From: Halopiger aswanensis
GTDB lineage: Archaea; Halobacteriota; Halobacteria; Halobacteriales; Natrialbaceae
Reading direction: 5' to 3'
Assembly: GCF_003610195.1 (NCBI RefSeq)
Contig: NZ_RAPO01000001.1
Span: forward strand, 248,001 to 312,000
DNA: 64,000 bases
Every line of letters begins with the position of its first letter. Within the stretch, counting starts at the first letter, position 1. Of the stretch, positions 37,624 to 44,354 are shown in pieces. The position numbers and the translations under genes were made by a program. The notes under the pieces were generated by a model that was given only the letters and a program-made list of their open reading frames with translations, made no database searches and was not told the origin of the DNA.

Positions 37624-39540
37624 TCAGTACCCCGAGAGCGTTATCGCGCTCTGAGCGACGAAGGACGTGGTTCCGGTCGAATGGGGGAGCGCCGCCGTCG
37701 GGGCCTCTCGCAGGAGCCAGACGATGACGCGTTCGCCCTGAATCGGCTCGTCTCCGATGTACTGTGCCGGGTGGTAGAACGCTGACTCGACCGACGGCTC
37801 CTCGAGTCGCTGTTGCTGGGGAATCTCGCCGGCAGCGCGGCGGGCGACGACCACCTCCGTACCGTCCTCGAGCGGCAGTTCGATCGTCTCCGAGCCCTCG
37901 GGGTTCCGCAATCGGACGACCGTATCCGGGGTGCCGACGAGATAGAACTCGGTTTCGGGGGCTGATCGGCCGGTTTCGTCGACGACTTCGACCGCGACGC
38001 TGTCCGTGGTCCCCGGAACGGGATCCATCGCGATCGCCGAGATGGAGTGGTGGGCGACGGCGTACTCGGGTTCCTCGCCGTCGGCGACATCGGCAGCATC
38101 CGTGTCGTCGGTGTCAGCAGTAGCACCGTCCTCATCGTCGTCCGCATCGCCGACCGCGGGAGCCGCGTACTCGGTGCTGAATCCCGGTCCCTGTCGCTTC
38201 CAGACGGGCGTGACCACGCCGTCCGCCCAGAAGTCGTAGGCGAGTTCGTGGCTCGACTGGCCGAACCGGTAGCCGGAGTGGTGGTCCTGCCCGTCGGGCG
38301 CCTGCGCTCCCGTCTCGTAGTGCGATCTGAACCGGAATCCCGACGGCCGATCGTCCGCGTCGTCGTATTCGACGATGCCGAGCGGCCCCGGCCCGCCGAA
38401 CTCGAGACTGTGGACGTCCCAGCGGAGCAACTCGCCGCTGAAGACCGGTTCGTCGTCCGGGAAGAACCACTCCAACGTCGACTCGCCGTCGCGTTCCGGC
38501 AGCCCGTAGCCGGTGAACGTCACCGGCGACTCGAGGCGCTCGAAGACCGGGGTGCCCCGATACGAGGCGGTGATCTCGGCGCCGTGGGTGCCCGGCGGCT
38601 CCCAGTCGATGGTCCAGTCGTCCCGGTCGAACGACTGGGGCGGGTCCTCGGTCCGATGGCTGCCGTCGTCCGCGGTGTACCACGGTCGCCGCTCGAACGG
38701 GACGCCGGAGACGGCGTCGAGGACGGTCTCCTCGGCGGGCTCGAGGCTGGCGGCCAGTTCGTGCGGCGGATACTCGGCGAACCGCTCGACCGTGCTGACG
38801 TCGACGACGTCGCCCACCTTGCCGTCTCGGATGTCCACGTAGGCGACGACCGCCCGCGTCGCGTCGCCGTCCGCGACGAACAGGACGACCGGATTCACGC
38901 CGCCGTGTTCGATTCCCCTGGCGGACGTGATCGCCTCGGAGACGGTAAACAGCGGAAACCAGTCGGCGCCGTCGACGGCCGCTTGCACCCGTGAGTCCTC
39001 GAGAACTCGCGCTAGCTGTTCGGACTCGAAGTCGGTCGCCTCCCAGGCGCGCCAGGCGACGTCCTGCGGCTCGGTGATCGTCAGCGCGACGAGGTCGTCC
39101 GTCCCCCGATCGACGTGGCCGTAGGCTACCTGTCGCTCGAGGGCGGTGACGTCGAACCGCCCCTCCTCGAGGCCGCCCTCGATCTCGACGTCCGGACACC
39201 CCTGGACGCTGACGGTGTCGCGATTCGCGAGCGGTTCGTACGCCTCGTAACTCGAGATCATGTCCGCGGCGGCGGCGTGGACCTCGGGATCGGACAGGAG
39301 CACCTCGAGCGCACGCCGTTTCCGGTACGTGTACAGAACCGCTGTTTCGTCATCTGCCCGTTGAGCCGCTTCGGATTGGGCTGCAGGAGGGGAGCGCGTC
39401 GCATCGCTCCCGCCTGCGCCTCGTTGTGCCGCCGAACGGCCGCCGATCGCACCCAGCCCCGCTCCGGCCGCCACCGTTCGGACGAACCGTCGACGCCGGA
39501 TCGCTCGAGTGGACGGCCGTTCATTGTCATGAGCTACCAT
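37624..39540 (-). CDS. Large Tat-exported protein of unknown function
   Basis: 638 residues. Signal RRRRFVRTVAAGAGLGAIGG is a Tat type, with no lipobox nearby, so probably secreted. Three regions: residues ~65-260 alpha/beta with repeats of VALTITEPQ, VVAYVDIRDGKVGDVVDV; ~290-470 beta-rich with Trp/Gly (WTIDWEPPGTHGAEITASYRGTP, YGLPERDGESTLEWFFPDDEP, SYRFGQ); an acidic Asp/Thr linker (~475-500) and a C-terminal ~120 residues. Parts vaguely resemble copper amine oxidase repeats, but I see no TOPAquinone motif and cannot confirm it. Function unknown. Confidence 0.7.
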   Translation of the reverse strand: MVAHDNERPSTRAIRRRRFVRTVAAGAGLGAIGGRSAAQRGAGGSDATRSPPAAQSEAAQRADDETAVLYTYRKRRALEVLLSDPEVHAAAADMISSYEAYEPLANRDTVSVQGCPDVEIEGGLEEGRFDVTALERQVAYGHVDRGTDDLVALTITEPQDVAWRAWEATDFESEQLARVLEDSRVQAAVDGADWFPLFTVSEAITSARGIEHGGVNPVVLFVADGDATRAVVAYVDIRDGKVGDVVDVSTVERFAEYPPHELAASLEPAEETVLDAVSGVPFERRPWYTADDGSHRTEDPPQSFDRDDWTIDWEPPGTHGAEITASYRGTPVFERLESPVTFTGYGLPERDGESTLEWFFPDDEPVFSGELLRWDVHSLEFGGPGPLGIVEYDDADDRPSGFRFRSHYETGAQAPDGQDHHSGYRFGQSSHELAYDFWADGVVTPVWKRQGPGFSTEYAAPAVGDADDDEDGATADTDDTDAADVADGEEPEYAVAHHSISAIAMDPVPGTTDSVAVEVVDETGRSAPETEFYLVGTPDTVVRLRNPEGSETIELPLEDGTEVVVARRAAGEIPQQQRLEEPSVESAFYHPAQYIGDEPIQGERVIVWLLREAPTAALPHSTGTTSFVAQSAITLSGY

Positions 39541-40458
39541 GATCGACAGTGGTCGACGGCAGAAACCGATAAAGTCTACTACCGTTTCTGACGTATCTCG
39601 GTGTTGTTTTCGGAGGCGTACTCGATATGATGCCCGTTACCGTCGCAAAGGGAGAGTTTCCGTCGCCGCCGGACGGCGCCGTTGAGCGTCTCGTCGGAAC
39701 TGCGTCTCGAACCCGCTCCGATCGCCGTTCGGACGCCACAAGTGCAAACGAGGCGATTCGGGGCGAACTGGCTCGATTCCACCGGACTGGCGTCGATCCG
39801 TGCACGATCGCTACTCCCCGAGTTCATCACGCTGAGTGACGTATCGCTGCCGAGTCCGTCTCTCATACGGCCTGACTGTCGCAGGAACGCGCGTTCGACG
39901 GACAACCCGTTCCACCGCTGTCACGATCGCTCTGTTTACTCGGAAGGTGACAATTTCGCGAATGGATCACCGCTATCGCCGCAAGTAGTTTAGCAATCGA
40001 CACGATCGACGGACTCGTGGTGGATCGTGTCGGACGCTCGTTCACGACTACCGATGATTACGCGTTTGACCGCGCGCGCATTCGTCTGCTACTCTCGGCC
40101 CGACGGCTATACCGACCTACCGACGGTCAGTTATCGGCGGGTAGCCACCGTCGCCATTGTTTCGCTCGGCGACCGACGCAATTCCGGTTTTCCACTCGCA
40201 AACGATGTCAGTCGCGTTTTTGATGCTCGTGGCGCGGTGACAGTTCTTCGCGAATCCGATTTTTCGACCGGGAAACTGTCAGCGACCGTGTCTTCCTAAA
40301 CCCAGCGAATTGGGCGCAACGAACGTCTTTCGAACGCAATCACTCGCGGATACTCCCAGGCTGATTAAATTAATTGATACGGAAAGAAACGGTCGGCGGC
40401 GTTTATTCGACAACTCGGTCAAGGTCAGTCCGCCCCAAAACGGGGTGTGAGAGAAATA
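39541..40458. other. 0.9-kb stretch without a gene
   Basis: Between the Tat protein (minus) and the paralogue array (plus). Several short frames exist but none with haloarchaeal codon pattern or homology that I can see. AT-rich segments at about 40360-40400 (TTAAATTAATTGATAC) make a promoter for the gene at 40459. Confidence 0.55.
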
Positions 40459-40989
40459 ATGAGCGAACAAGACACGACAGGCGACTCGAGGCGGTCGTTC
40501 ATGGCGAAGGGTGCCCTCGCGACGGGCGCGTTAGCGCTCGGCGGGTTCGGGACAGCCACGGTCAGCGCACAGGAGGACCAGATAGCGGTCTTCGCGACGG
40601 ATCTCTATCCTGGTGCGGATTTCGACGTCATCGCCCAGCTACAGGAGAGTACGACCGTCGAGATCCTCCAATTAGACGGGGAAACAGTGTCGGAGATCTC
40701 CCAGCCCGACGAGTGGACCGGGCACATCATCCGGTACGACATCGGGCAGGAGTCCGGCATCACGACGTTCCTCTTCGTGCGCGGTGCAGGGCTGAGCGCC
40801 GGTGACAGCGGGACGCTCGGCGAGGAAGCGTCGGTGCTGAGCTCGGACCTGAACCTCATGAGTACGTCGGTCTCCAGCGGTGGCGGTGGCACCGACACCA
40901 GCGATAGCGAAACCAGCGACAGCGACATGATGACCGAGGAGAACGAGACGACAACCGAGAACGAAACGACGGTCGAGGGAGGTGACTAA
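40459..40989 (+). CDS. Tandem-array paralogue 1, Tat-exported beta domain
   Basis: 176 residues. Signal RRSFMAKGALATGALALGGF leads to a ~95-residue domain of beta character: IAVFATDLYPGADFDVIAQL, VEILQLDGETVSEISQPDEW, TGHIIRYDIG, FLFVRGAGLSAGDSGTLGEE, LNLMSTSV, then a Ser/Glu/Thr tail with NETT sequons. The ATG at 40459 is preferred to a GTG four codons upstream. It is the first of three consecutive genes with the same domain (40459, 40991, 41372). Confidence 0.75.
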   Translation: MSEQDTTGDSRRSFMAKGALATGALALGGFGTATVSAQEDQIAVFATDLYPGADFDVIAQLQESTTVEILQLDGETVSEISQPDEWTGHIIRYDIGQESGITTFLFVRGAGLSAGDSGTLGEEASVLSSDLNLMSTSVSSGGGGTDTSDSETSDSDMMTEENETTTENETTVEGGD

Positions 40990-40990
40990 C

Positions 40991-41317
40991 ATGGTTCAAG
41001 ACGATGACGGACAGGTCCTAGTGTTCACGTACGACTACGAGGCCGGCGAGAGCTTCGACGTCGTCTCACAGCTCGAGACGTCGACGACCGTCCGAATCCT
41101 CCAGACCGCCGACGAGGAGACCGTCCCGGAAATCTCACAGCCCGACGAGTACAACGGTCACGTCGTCCGGTACCAGGCCGACGACGGACCGCAGGGTCCC
41201 ACGGTGCTCCTGTTCACCCGCGACCAGACCTTCGAGAGCGGCGAATCCGGCTCGCTCGGTGAAGACGCACAGATGTTCAGCAGCCGACTGAACCTCATTT
41301 CGACGTCGCTAGAATAA
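40991..41317 (+). CDS. Tandem-array paralogue 2, no signal peptide
   Basis: 108 residues, one base after the stop of paralogue 1. The whole protein is the shared domain: VLVFTYDYEAGESFDVVSQLE, VRILQ, EETVPEISQPDEY, NGHVVRYQADDG, TVLLFTRDQTFESGESGSLGED, LNLISTSL. It lacks a signal peptide, so it should remain in the cytoplasm or be carried with its partner. Identities with paralogue 1 are spread over the entire domain. Probably co-transcribed with it. Confidence 0.75.
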   Translation: MVQDDDGQVLVFTYDYEAGESFDVVSQLETSTTVRILQTADEETVPEISQPDEYNGHVVRYQADDGPQGPTVLLFTRDQTFESGESGSLGEDAQMFSSRLNLISTSLE

Positions 41318-41371
41318 CGCTTCGGCCTTTATTTTTATCGACGGGTGCCGGTTCCGGGTGATTGCGGATGA

Positions 41372-42049
41372 ATGAAACACCGTCCCGTTGCCAGTCGAAG
41401 ACCGAACCGACCGAGCGGCGGCGCGACCGTCGACGCCAGCGGCAGCGAAACAGAACCAATACCATATCAGCAACACATGACGCCCAAACCAGCGGCCAAC
41501 GGCTCGAGCGAGTCAGACGTACCAGGAGCCGATCCAGTGTCCACTGCGACGAACGATCGATCGGACGCGACCGACGCAGCCGGCGGGCGGTCGGCCGAAT
41601 CGATCCGGTTGCAGGCCGATCCCGGCGCGTGTTCGGCCGACGGCGGCTCGCCGGACGAGACTGACGAGCCGGATCGACTCGTACTGGTTCCGATGAACGA
41701 CTATCAGCCCGGGATGACCGGCCGAGTCGTCGATCGGCTTCCGGCCCCGATCGTCGTCGACCTCCTCGCGCTGCCGAACGGGGACACGGTTTCCGTCCTC
41801 ACCCAGCCCGACGAGTACCGCGGCTACGTCGTCCGATCCACGCTCACGGCAACGCAGGTCCGGTCGACGACGATCGTCTTTACGCGCGACTCGCTCGAGA
41901 CGGGTGCGTGCTACGTATTCGAAGTCGGCGCGCAACTGTTTAGCACGCAGTTGTCCCTCCTGCGGACGACCGTCCGTCGCGTCGGAGCGGCCGATTCGAG
42001 TGATTCGGGCGAGTCCGACGAGTCGGCAGCCGCCGCAAACGACGCGTAG
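41372..42049 (+). CDS. Tandem-array paralogue 3, long disordered N-terminus
   Basis: 225 residues. The first ~100 are Ser/Asp/Pro-rich and disordered, with no signal. Then the shared domain: LVLVPMNDYQPGMTGRVVDRL, VDLLALPNGDTVSVLTQPDEY, RGYVVRSTL, TIVFTRDSLETGACYVFEVG, LFSTQLSLLRTTV, and a Ser/Asp tail. The N-terminal start is uncertain; ATG 41477 would remove 35 residues. TTATTTTTATC (41328-41338) is upstream. More divergent than the other two. Confidence 0.65.
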   Translation: MKHRPVASRRPNRPSGGATVDASGSETEPIPYQQHMTPKPAANGSSESDVPGADPVSTATNDRSDATDAAGGRSAESIRLQADPGACSADGGSPDETDEPDRLVLVPMNDYQPGMTGRVVDRLPAPIVVDLLALPNGDTVSVLTQPDEYRGYVVRSTLTATQVRSTTIVFTRDSLETGACYVFEVGAQLFSTQLSLLRTTVRRVGAADSSDSGESDESAAAANDA

Positions 42050-42119
42050 CGACTGCCGAGGGTCCGATCCCGATTCCGCGAGCCCGGGTCTTTTACCGGC
42101 CGCCCACCTAGGGTCGCGC

Positions 42120-44354
42120 ATGGATACCCCGACCCGGCGAAACCGGCTCGAGGACGAGGAGAGCCCCTATCTGCGCCAGCACGCGGACAACCCCGTCAAC
42201 TGGCAACCGTGGGACGAACGGGCCCTCGAGGCGGCCCGCGAGCGCGACGTGCCGATCTTCCTCTCGATCGGCTACTCGGCGTGTCACTGGTGTCACGTCA
42301 TGGAGGAAGAGAGCTTTCAGGACGAGGACGTCGCCGAAGTTCTCAACGAGAACTTCGTCCCGGTCAAGGTCGACCGCGAGGAGCGCCCGGACATCGACTC
42401 GATCTACATGACCGTCTGCCAGCTCGTCTCCGGGCGGGGCGGCTGGCCCCTCTCGGCGTGGCTCACTCCCGAGGGCAAGCCCTTCTTCATCGGGACCTAC
42501 TTCCCCCGCGAGGGCCAGCGCGGTCAGCCCGGGTTCCTCGACCTCTGTGAGCGCATCAGCGATTCGTGGAACAGCGAAGACCGCGAGGAGATGGAACACC
42601 GCGCCGACCAGTGGACCGAGGCCGCGAAGGACCGCCTCGAGGAGACGCCCGAGGGTGCGGGCGCAGGCGGCGCGGCCGAACCGCCCTCGAGCGAGGTGCT
42701 CGAAACGGCCGCCAACACGGCACTCCGGAGCGCGGACCGCCAGTACGGCGGCTTCGGTTCGGACGGGCCGAAGTTCCCCCAGCCCGCCCGCCTCCAGGCC
42801 CTCGCCCGCGCGTACGACCGCACCGGTCGCGAGGAGTACCGCGAGGTGCTCGAGGAAACCCTGGACGCGATGGCCGCAGGCGGCCTCTACGACCACGTCG
42901 GCGGCGGGTTCCACCGGTACTGCGTCGACCGCGACTGGACGGTGCCTCACTTCGAGAAGATGCTGTACGACAACGCCGAGATTCCGCGAGCCTACCTCAC
43001 GGGCTATCAGCTCACCGGCGACGAGCGCTACGCCGAGGTCGTCGCGGAGACGCTCGCGTTCGTCGACCGCGAACTCACCCACGAGGAGGGCGGCTTCTTC
43101 AGCACGCTCGACGCGCAGAGCGAGCACCCCGAGACCGGCGAGCGCGAGGAGGGCGCCTTCTACGTCTGGACGCCCGAGGAAGTTCACGACGCGCTCGAGG
43201 ACGAGACGACGGCCGACCTCTTCTGTGACCGGTACGATATCACGGAGTCCGGGAACTTCGAGGGCCGGAACCAGCCCAACCGCGTCCGCTCGATCGACGA
43301 CCTCGCCGAGGAGTACGATCTCGAGGCCAGCGAGGTACAGGAGCGCCTCGACGCTGCGCGCCAGCAACTGTTCGCGGCCCGCGAGCAACGGCCGCGGCCG
43401 AACCGCGACGAGAAGGTGCTGGCGGGCTGGAACGGCCTGATGATCGCGACCTGCGCCGAGGCCGCGCTCGTGCTCGGCGACGACCAGTACGCCGATATGG
43501 CCGTTGCGGCCCTCGAGTTCGTCCGGGATCGGCTCTGGGACGTCGACGAGCAGCGGCTCAACAGGCGGTACAAGGACGTCTCCGAGCCACGGTCGGAGGA
43601 TCGTGAGACGGAGTCTCACGGTGGCGACGTCAAGGTCGACGGCTACCTCGAGGATTACGCCTTCCTCGCGCGCGGCGCACTGGGCTGTTACGAGGCCACC
43701 GGCGATGTCGACCACCTCCGATTCGCGCTCGAGTTGGCCCGCACGATCGAGGCCGAGTTCTGGGACGCCGACCGCGGCACGCTCTATTTCACCCCCGAGA
43801 GCGGCGAGTCGCTGGTCACCCGCCCGCAGGAACTGGGCGACCAGTCGACGCCCGCCGCGACCGGCGTCGCCGTCGAAGTCCTGCTCGCACTCGCGGAGTT
43901 CGCCGACGAGGAGTTCGAGGAGATCGCGGCGACCGTCCTCGAGACCCACGCGAACAAGATCGAAGCCAACTCGCTCGAGCACACGACGCTCTGTCTCGCC
44001 GCCGATCGCCTCGAGTCCGGCGCGCTCGAGGTGACCGTCGCGGCCGACGACCTCCCCGACGAGTGGCGCGACCGGTTCGCCTCGCGGTACTTCCCCGATC
44101 GGCTGTTCGCGCGCCGACCGGCGACCGAGGGCGAACTCGAGGAGTGGCTCGACCATCTGCACCTGGAGGAGGCGCCGCCGATCTGGGCCGGCCGCGAGGC
44201 CCGCGACGGCGAGCCGACGCTGTACGTCTGCCGGAACCGGACCTGTTCGCCGCCGACCCACGACGTCGAGGAGGCCCTCGAGTGGCTCGGCGACAACGCG
44301 GCGGCCGAGGGTGCGGAAGCGGAAACGCTCGAGGAGGACGAAAGCCCGTTCTGA
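42120..44354 (+). CDS. YyaL/DUF255-type thioredoxin-domain protein
   Basis: 744 residues, the YyaL (human SPATA20-like) family. The N-terminal thioredoxin-like domain begins RLEDEESPYLRQHADNPVNWQPW and carries CHWCH in SIGYSACHWCHVMEEESF, followed by NENFVPVKVDREERPDIDSIYM. The remainder is an (alpha/alpha)6-barrel-like part (GGLYDHVGGGFHRYCVDRDW, HFEKMLYDNAEIPRAYL, WNGLMIATCAEAAL). The family's enzymatic role is not settled. Normal length, ATG start at 42120, monocistronic. Confidence 0.9.
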   Translation: MDTPTRRNRLEDEESPYLRQHADNPVNWQPWDERALEAARERDVPIFLSIGYSACHWCHVMEEESFQDEDVAEVLNENFVPVKVDREERPDIDSIYMTVCQLVSGRGGWPLSAWLTPEGKPFFIGTYFPREGQRGQPGFLDLCERISDSWNSEDREEMEHRADQWTEAAKDRLEETPEGAGAGGAAEPPSSEVLETAANTALRSADRQYGGFGSDGPKFPQPARLQALARAYDRTGREEYREVLEETLDAMAAGGLYDHVGGGFHRYCVDRDWTVPHFEKMLYDNAEIPRAYLTGYQLTGDERYAEVVAETLAFVDRELTHEEGGFFSTLDAQSEHPETGEREEGAFYVWTPEEVHDALEDETTADLFCDRYDITESGNFEGRNQPNRVRSIDDLAEEYDLEASEVQERLDAARQQLFAAREQRPRPNRDEKVLAGWNGLMIATCAEAALVLGDDQYADMAVAALEFVRDRLWDVDEQRLNRRYKDVSEPRSEDRETESHGGDVKVDGYLEDYAFLARGALGCYEATGDVDHLRFALELARTIEAEFWDADRGTLYFTPESGESLVTRPQELGDQSTPAATGVAVEVLLALAEFADEEFEEIAATVLETHANKIEANSLEHTTLCLAADRLESGALEVTVAADDLPDEWRDRFASRYFPDRLFARRPATEGELEEWLDHLHLEEAPPIWAGREARDGEPTLYVCRNRTCSPPTHDVEEALEWLGDNAAAEGAEAETLEEDESPF

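Follow-up and report, generated by a model that had tools for sequence, protein, structure and literature searches.

Tandem small-barrel proteins of Halopiger aswanensis with predicted Tat export and a promoter box in common with a cupredoxin-type oxidoreductase

The window, a stretch of 64,000 nucleotides from Halopiger aswanensis, carries three tandem paralogous genes, here called A, B and C. We propose that their products belong to a group of exported surface proteins in the regulon of a cupredoxin oxidoreductase and that A and B likely form a pair, a reading that we consider evenly balanced as a whole. Export together with co-regulation, judged from sequence features, is the probable part of it; that B hitchhikes out with A through the Tat system is a tentative part, for which our expectation falls somewhat below even. 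A would be the Tat-exported, tailed form, probably located at the cell surface and built on an OB-fold-like barrel, and B would be its tailless partner, made from the same mRNA through coupling. The two would assemble as paralogous subunits, B leaving with A by hitchhiker export, and the family would contribute binding or accessory subunits to extracytoplasmic cupredoxin-linked oxidation at the cell surface. If so, the work adds an exported protein family that is missing from the family libraries searched.

The three genes and their family

Gene A (40459..40989, plus strand) encodes a Tat signal, a domain at about 40579-40872 and an acidic C-terminal tail with NxT sequons. Gene B (40991..41317, plus strand; 108 aa) is the bare domain with neither signal nor tail, and gene C (41372..42049, plus strand) has its domain at about 41681-41977 behind a hydrophilic N-terminus derived from a decayed signal. 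An earlier note on this DNA had reported three tandem open reading frames here, and they were found where it placed them. The shared domain that it saw in all three, which spans about 100 residues, was borne out by pairwise BLASTP, with E-values of 1e-11 or better (A-B, 53% identity over 101 aa, E 7e-32; B-C, 36% over 103 aa, E 1e-15; A-C, 30% over 105 aa, E 1e-11), so the paralogy of the three is far beyond chance. The motif QPDE(W/Y)xG(H/Y)(I/V)(I/V)R matched exactly in A, B and C. The strand motif, described as FxxR, was present but reads F-x-R-(D/G), and the closing LxLxST deviates in C, which reads LSLLRTT. The note was right about the trio, the paralogy and the difference in predicted localisation, but it overlooked a second A-B pair on a different contig of the source genome (C4:521598-522307) as well as the promoter box, the 5' hairpin and the link to a cupredoxin-type oxidoreductase.

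Orthologous C proteins begin at a Met equivalent to 41477; the N-terminus of C would therefore be about 35 residues shorter than stated, and the true start is probably 41477 rather than 41372. The N-terminus of C, described before as long and disordered, is indeed long and hydrophilic, but that description was incomplete: related C copies (e.g., L047 and L098) have retained a hydrophobic, signal-like core, which in the window's copy has decayed. C is evidently a third, more divergent paralogue, presumably descended from exported forms, whose signal was lost in Halopiger aswanensis.

The view that the domain is undescribed was upheld, as profile searches linked it to no known family and it is absent from Pfam, NCBIfam, PADLOC and PDB sequences. 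Pfam gave no match for A, B or C up to E 10, NCBIfam gave nothing except Tat-signal models (for A, below threshold), and sequence and profile searches of the PDB and searches of PHROGs gave no significant match. No PADLOC family was matched by A, B or C, and membership in anti-phage defence was not found. A scan of 88 diverse family members against family libraries likewise returned no convincing match. Bacterial SH3 (SH3_16, PF18348) was considered and rejected, with 6 of the 88 members matching weakly, below the Pfam gathering score, and a best E of 0.0049 among 88 scans. A viral origin was also rejected: a search of 50,697 phage records found nothing similar, no match in viral contigs was confirmed, and comparison with predicted viral folds yielded nothing below E 0.001. 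The accessible portions of the literature on secretomes, Tat substrates, sorbosone dehydrogenase, SPW proteins, exported OB-folds, hitchhikers and leaders held no description of the family.

Profile searches detected the family in 66 of 391 Halobacteria genomes, 59 of them in the window's own family (Natrialbaceae) and 7 in one other family; by BLAST the figure for the class was 63 of 391. Within Natrialbaceae it was present in 72 of 125 genomes, and the 12 positive genomes in a draw of 392 from the phylum all fell within the same two families of Halobacteria. On these whole-genome searches the family is restricted to those two families. Its members come from Halovivax, Natrinema, Haloterrigena, Natribaculum, Haladaptatus and Halorussus, among others, with 1 to 6 copies per genome, and neither single copies with random neighbours nor a known family was the rule; tandem arrays occur often, as do conserved neighbours. 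Plasmid copies in RefSeq are annotated as hypothetical, Tat-signal or calcium-binding proteins. The proteins labelled as calcium-binding on Natrinema halophilum and Natribaculum luteum plasmids are members of this same small-barrel family, and the label is unsupported for the window's proteins by any Pfam (E 10) or NCBIfam model.

AlphaFold models were made of B (88-sequence alignment, pLDDT 89.1) and of one copy, f6, from the other Halobacteria family (128 sequences, pLDDT 90.4). Both showed the same seven strands and single helix. In each case the top structural matches were small OB-type barrels (S28e, EutN, PriB, gene V protein, L2 and ModE), with Z at most 4.7, and Foldseek against the PDB gave E 0.33 or worse. 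These models suggest a small, OB-fold-like beta-barrel; the matches are weak, and we do not call the domain a member of the OB-fold. Cysteine occurs in 11 of 173 domains, and nothing points to a Cys metal site. Bacterial exported OB-fold proteins exist in the BOF family (YgiW/SipA/VisP type). In the accessible accounts of that family, its members resemble ours as small exported proteins around an OB-like barrel, but no sequence relation was found, the OB-like fold here being a weak structural match, and the present family differs in its Tat-type signal, its acidic or Gly/Asn tails and its signal-less paralogous partner.

Promoter box, leader hairpin and candidate regulon

Upstream of A lies a promoter box, GAAACGGTCG-N6-TTTAT (40386..40406, plus strand), composed of an upstream element and a TATA-like box; it is an exact match to GRAACRRTSGNNNNNNYTTAT and is conserved in alignment. 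The GRAACRRTSGNNNNNNYTTAT pattern had 2 matches in the 4.87 Mb source genome and 0 for the reversed control. A hairpin, CGCCCC-AAAAC-GGGGTG, follows in the 5' leader (40431..40447, plus strand), its 3' arm overlapping the Shine-Dalgarno-like GGGGTGTGA. The consensus upstream of copies that start a transcript was GRAACRRTSG-N6-YTTAT, then a CCC(C)-loop-GGG(G) hairpin, then GTGAGAGA-ATG. A broad test placed this element before 85 of the 173 copies, made up of 65 of the 93 with twin-arginine and 20 of the remaining 80; the other 28 twin-arginine copies fail the test for the whole element. Neither B nor C of the window is preceded by it, and the second A-B pair of the source genome has no box.

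In 84 copies the CCC arm follows the TATA-like box by 28-31 nt (5-95%). Given the usual archaeal spacing from TATA box to transcript start, the hairpin would sit where the mRNA should begin, at its 5' end. Many haloarchaeal mRNAs are leaderless, and a 5'-end hairpin overlapping the ribosome site would offer a case in which translational control in haloarchaea could be tested. To quantify the hairpin, copies were picked by the box alone, since a set filtered for CCC..GGG would be biased. The CCC..GGG pattern was present in 85 of 86 copies picked in this way, and 53 of 56 deduplicated relatives had a stem score of 4 or more, whereas 300 shuffles gave 23.8 on average and 33 at most. Outer pairs of the hairpin vary among A-T, T-A, G-C and C-G in a set picked with the CCC..GGG filter. 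Consensus RNA folding of 68 leaders found no pair, which we guess is due to the hairpin sliding relative to its flanks, and Rfam had no match in 40250-42200.

The exact box was counted by us at 120 sites in the 125 genomes of the window's family, compared to 3 for the reversed pattern. About 59 of the 120 were assigned by coordinates to the small-barrel family, and the count in fetched loci was 58 of 173 family copies. From the other 61 sites, 60 were fetched, and 44 of these are followed on the same strand by a gene for a secreted protein that combines a cupredoxin with a glucose/sorbosone dehydrogenase (cupredoxin-GSDH); the remaining site (L148) also precedes such a gene, giving 45 in all. 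A loose core, AACGGTMG-N5,6-TTTAT, had 18 sites in 8 genomes and 1 reversed-control match. By coordinates, 7 of the 18 belong to the small-barrel family, 5 to a Tat-exported neighbour named Tat638, 3 to cupredoxin-GSDH and 3 lie elsewhere. The cupredoxin-GSDH of the source genome matched GSDH (PF07995, E 2e-29) and Copper-bind (PF00127, E 2e-9) in Pfam. Haloarchaeal cupredoxin-GSDH (PF00127 plus PF07995) is like A in its Tat-type signal and in the box, with similarity running past the TATA-like box; it differs in an unrelated coding sequence and in having no 5' hairpin. Genomes that lack the small-barrel family, such as the same-genus G242, retain the box before cupredoxin-GSDH, so the regulon can do without the family, and its regulator either predates the family or is independent of it. 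Within these genomes the box is near-exclusive to the family and to Tat-exported cupredoxin-GSDH, with a variant at Tat638, and may well mark a common regulator, although a common promoter is no proof of a common pathway. So rare and specific a box would offer an experimental handle linking the family to secreted copper-linked oxidoreductases.

Four core sites occur in the source genome, namely those of A, Tat638, cupredoxin-GSDH and a site at C1:364359-364377. The last is an exact AACGGTCG-N6-TTTAT (L246 in the source genome, G000) before about 0.8 kb with no convincing same-strand protein gene; it is conserved in G242 (L241) and possibly precedes a small RNA. SPW-repeat membrane proteins with the exact box in G005 and G203 are a possible further regulon member, and a relative in the source genome gave a weak model match, at E 0.27 (loci L162/L231, L199 and L170). 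Other scattered single genes with the box are possibly chance. The cupredoxin-GSDH of the source genome (L228, C2:429500-433000) has an acidic, NxT-rich end much like the tail of A.

Thymidylate synthase, DHFR or the thioredoxin-domain YyaL lies near 34 of the 80 fetched loci, as in the window (for L137, by a distant 29% match), and these common neighbours point to an old fixed chromosomal spot. Tat638, a divergent 638-aa protein with predicted Tat export (37624..39540, minus strand), is a conserved neighbour that adjoins 10 of the 80 loci including the window's, some of which have left the fixed spot. Its box variant, AACGGTAG-N5-TTTAT (39569..39586, minus strand), is also found in orthologues. 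Tat638 had no Pfam, NCBIfam or PDB match. In the L097 orthologue, a BLAST match alone relates an N-terminal domain to the GSDH cupredoxin, at 46% identity (E 1e-27), and all 9 Tat638 orthologues matched no copper-binding family of Pfam up to E 1. A by-eye impression of Tat638 as a distant copper amine oxidase was unsupported by profile searches.

Coupling, export signals and tails

The Tat signal attributed to A is present, with the Tat-type motif SRRSFMAKG, a twin-arginine n-region, a hydrophobic h-region and an AxA-type site; the NCBIfam TAT model scored it at 14 bits, slightly under the curated cut-off of 16.7. The Shine-Dalgarno sequence of B, GGAGGTGA (40978..40985, plus strand), lies within the last codons of A, which accounts for the frequent NGGE or NGGD end of A. 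Among 24 A-B pairs selected for a signal-less partner, the gap was -1 to 2 nt, and an SD-like motif was inside the end of A in 23. This arrangement suggests that B is translationally coupled to A. B also has the features expected of a Tat hitchhiker, being a signal-less partner encoded together with A.

Domain copies were surveyed across the 80 fetched loci, which held 173, and 170 of these entered the tree after three short ones were dropped. Twin-arginine copies by pattern numbered 90 of the 170, 74 with a tail and 16 without; 17 copies had a tail but no twin-arginine, and 63 had neither. The association of twin-arginine and tail was strong by Fisher's test when relatedness was ignored (p 5e-16). 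Among 14 phylogenetically independent pairs on well-supported branches, the tail agreed with the twin-arginine in about 6 and ran against it in about 0.3 (median p 0.03, range 0.0156-0.289), and the association was not significant among signal-bearing copies alone (median p 0.125). Signal classes are simple patterns, such that L104_7159 and L105_6070 (RRSS) were scored without twin-arginine and L093_5971, scored with it, is doubtful. In the 74 twin-arginine copies with a tail, the tail averaged 37% Asp+Glu and 40% Gly+Asn, and an N-x-S/T sequon was present in 44. The usual form is a Tat-type protein with an acidic or Gly/Asn-rich tail adjoining tailless paralogues with a broken twin-arginine or a lost signal, and a tailed twin-arginine copy next to one with neither feature is a recurrent combination across the sequences surveyed. 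In partners that keep a signal, the arginine pair now reads RH, RQ, RY, RD, SG, KR and so on, and the hydrophobic core and AQ site are kept. A clade of L128, L129, L131, L133 and L136 is reversed, with a tailless twin-arginine copy and a tailed second copy.

Duplication with different predicted localisation, as proposed in the earlier note, is real and recurs across relatives. In the tree, A and B from Natrinema-type loci separated into two groups of 21, both well supported. The A and B domains of L087 and of L088/L089 clustered together, which we read as gene conversion or repeated origin. Across five loci each, dN/dS was 0.05-0.29 for A, 0.08-0.43 for B and 0.22-0.50 for C, and it was 0.02-0.32 for partner copies without twin-arginine. 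With values of 0.02-0.50 in the tested pairs, A, B, C and the broken-arginine groups do not look like pseudogenes, and the sampled copies are under purifying selection.

Proposed export of the pair and alternative explanations

Co-export of B with A is proposed from the coupling, the homology and the observation that one partner alone has repeatedly lost its twin-arginine. The main rival, which we consider doubtful, follows the secreted/cytosolic idea of the earlier note and is a split in localisation in which A works outside and B, with C, is a cytoplasmic regulator, chaperone or counterpart for the same ligand. It would explain why B has no signal in any of the 24 coupled pairs, themselves selected for a signal-less partner, and it agrees with the loss of the signal core of C in the window's lineage and with purifying selection on the sampled copies. 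However, many partners without twin-arginine (e.g., L058, L059 and L108-L112) retain their hydrophobic core together with an AQ cleavage-like site, which suggests that these still exit the cytoplasm. That the copies are dosage duplicates, amplified for surface expression, with twin-arginine loss as drift and the box as a strong promoter class, we regard as improbable. Copy numbers of 1 to 6, the clustering of A and B domains in L087 and L088/L089 as gene conversion would give, and the exceptions to the pairing rule would all fit amplification, but drift sits poorly with purifying selection on the copies without twin-arginine (dN/dS 0.02-0.32), as does a general promoter class with a box nearly confined to a few gene families.

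A secreted toxin A with a paralogous intracellular immunity protein B, in halocin-like competition, is very improbable. The tight A-B coupling and tandem arrays would suit such a pair, but A is conserved rather than hypervariable (domain 96% identical to that of L099; dN/dS 0.05-0.29), 34 of 80 loci sit at one fixed spot, no PADLOC model matched and partners elsewhere bear signals. A bolder form of the paired-export reading, in which one promoter code (the AACGGT box at a fixed TATA-like distance) joins the OB-like family, the cupredoxin dehydrogenase and Tat638, and the family consists of paralogue-pair hitchhikers with recurrent twin-arginine loss, we consider rather unlikely.

Known Tat hitchhiker partners are unrelated enzyme subunits with cofactors, whereas A and B are two paralogues of one small domain whose co-export is putative. 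If such pairs do travel together, they would provide a small natural test of homologous subunits sharing one Tat signal. In the accessible portions of the reports on PaoABC (PMC4273604) and on heterodimers (PMC10924467), as in A-B, one subunit carries the twin-arginine signal and an adjacently encoded partner does not.

Arrays of five and four tandem copies, mostly with their own promoter and hairpin element, were observed at L044 and L045, respectively. At L141 (G357), A-B lies about 11 kb from C and a fragmentary domain copy is found near a neighbour gene, which suggests a rearranged or truncated second operon.
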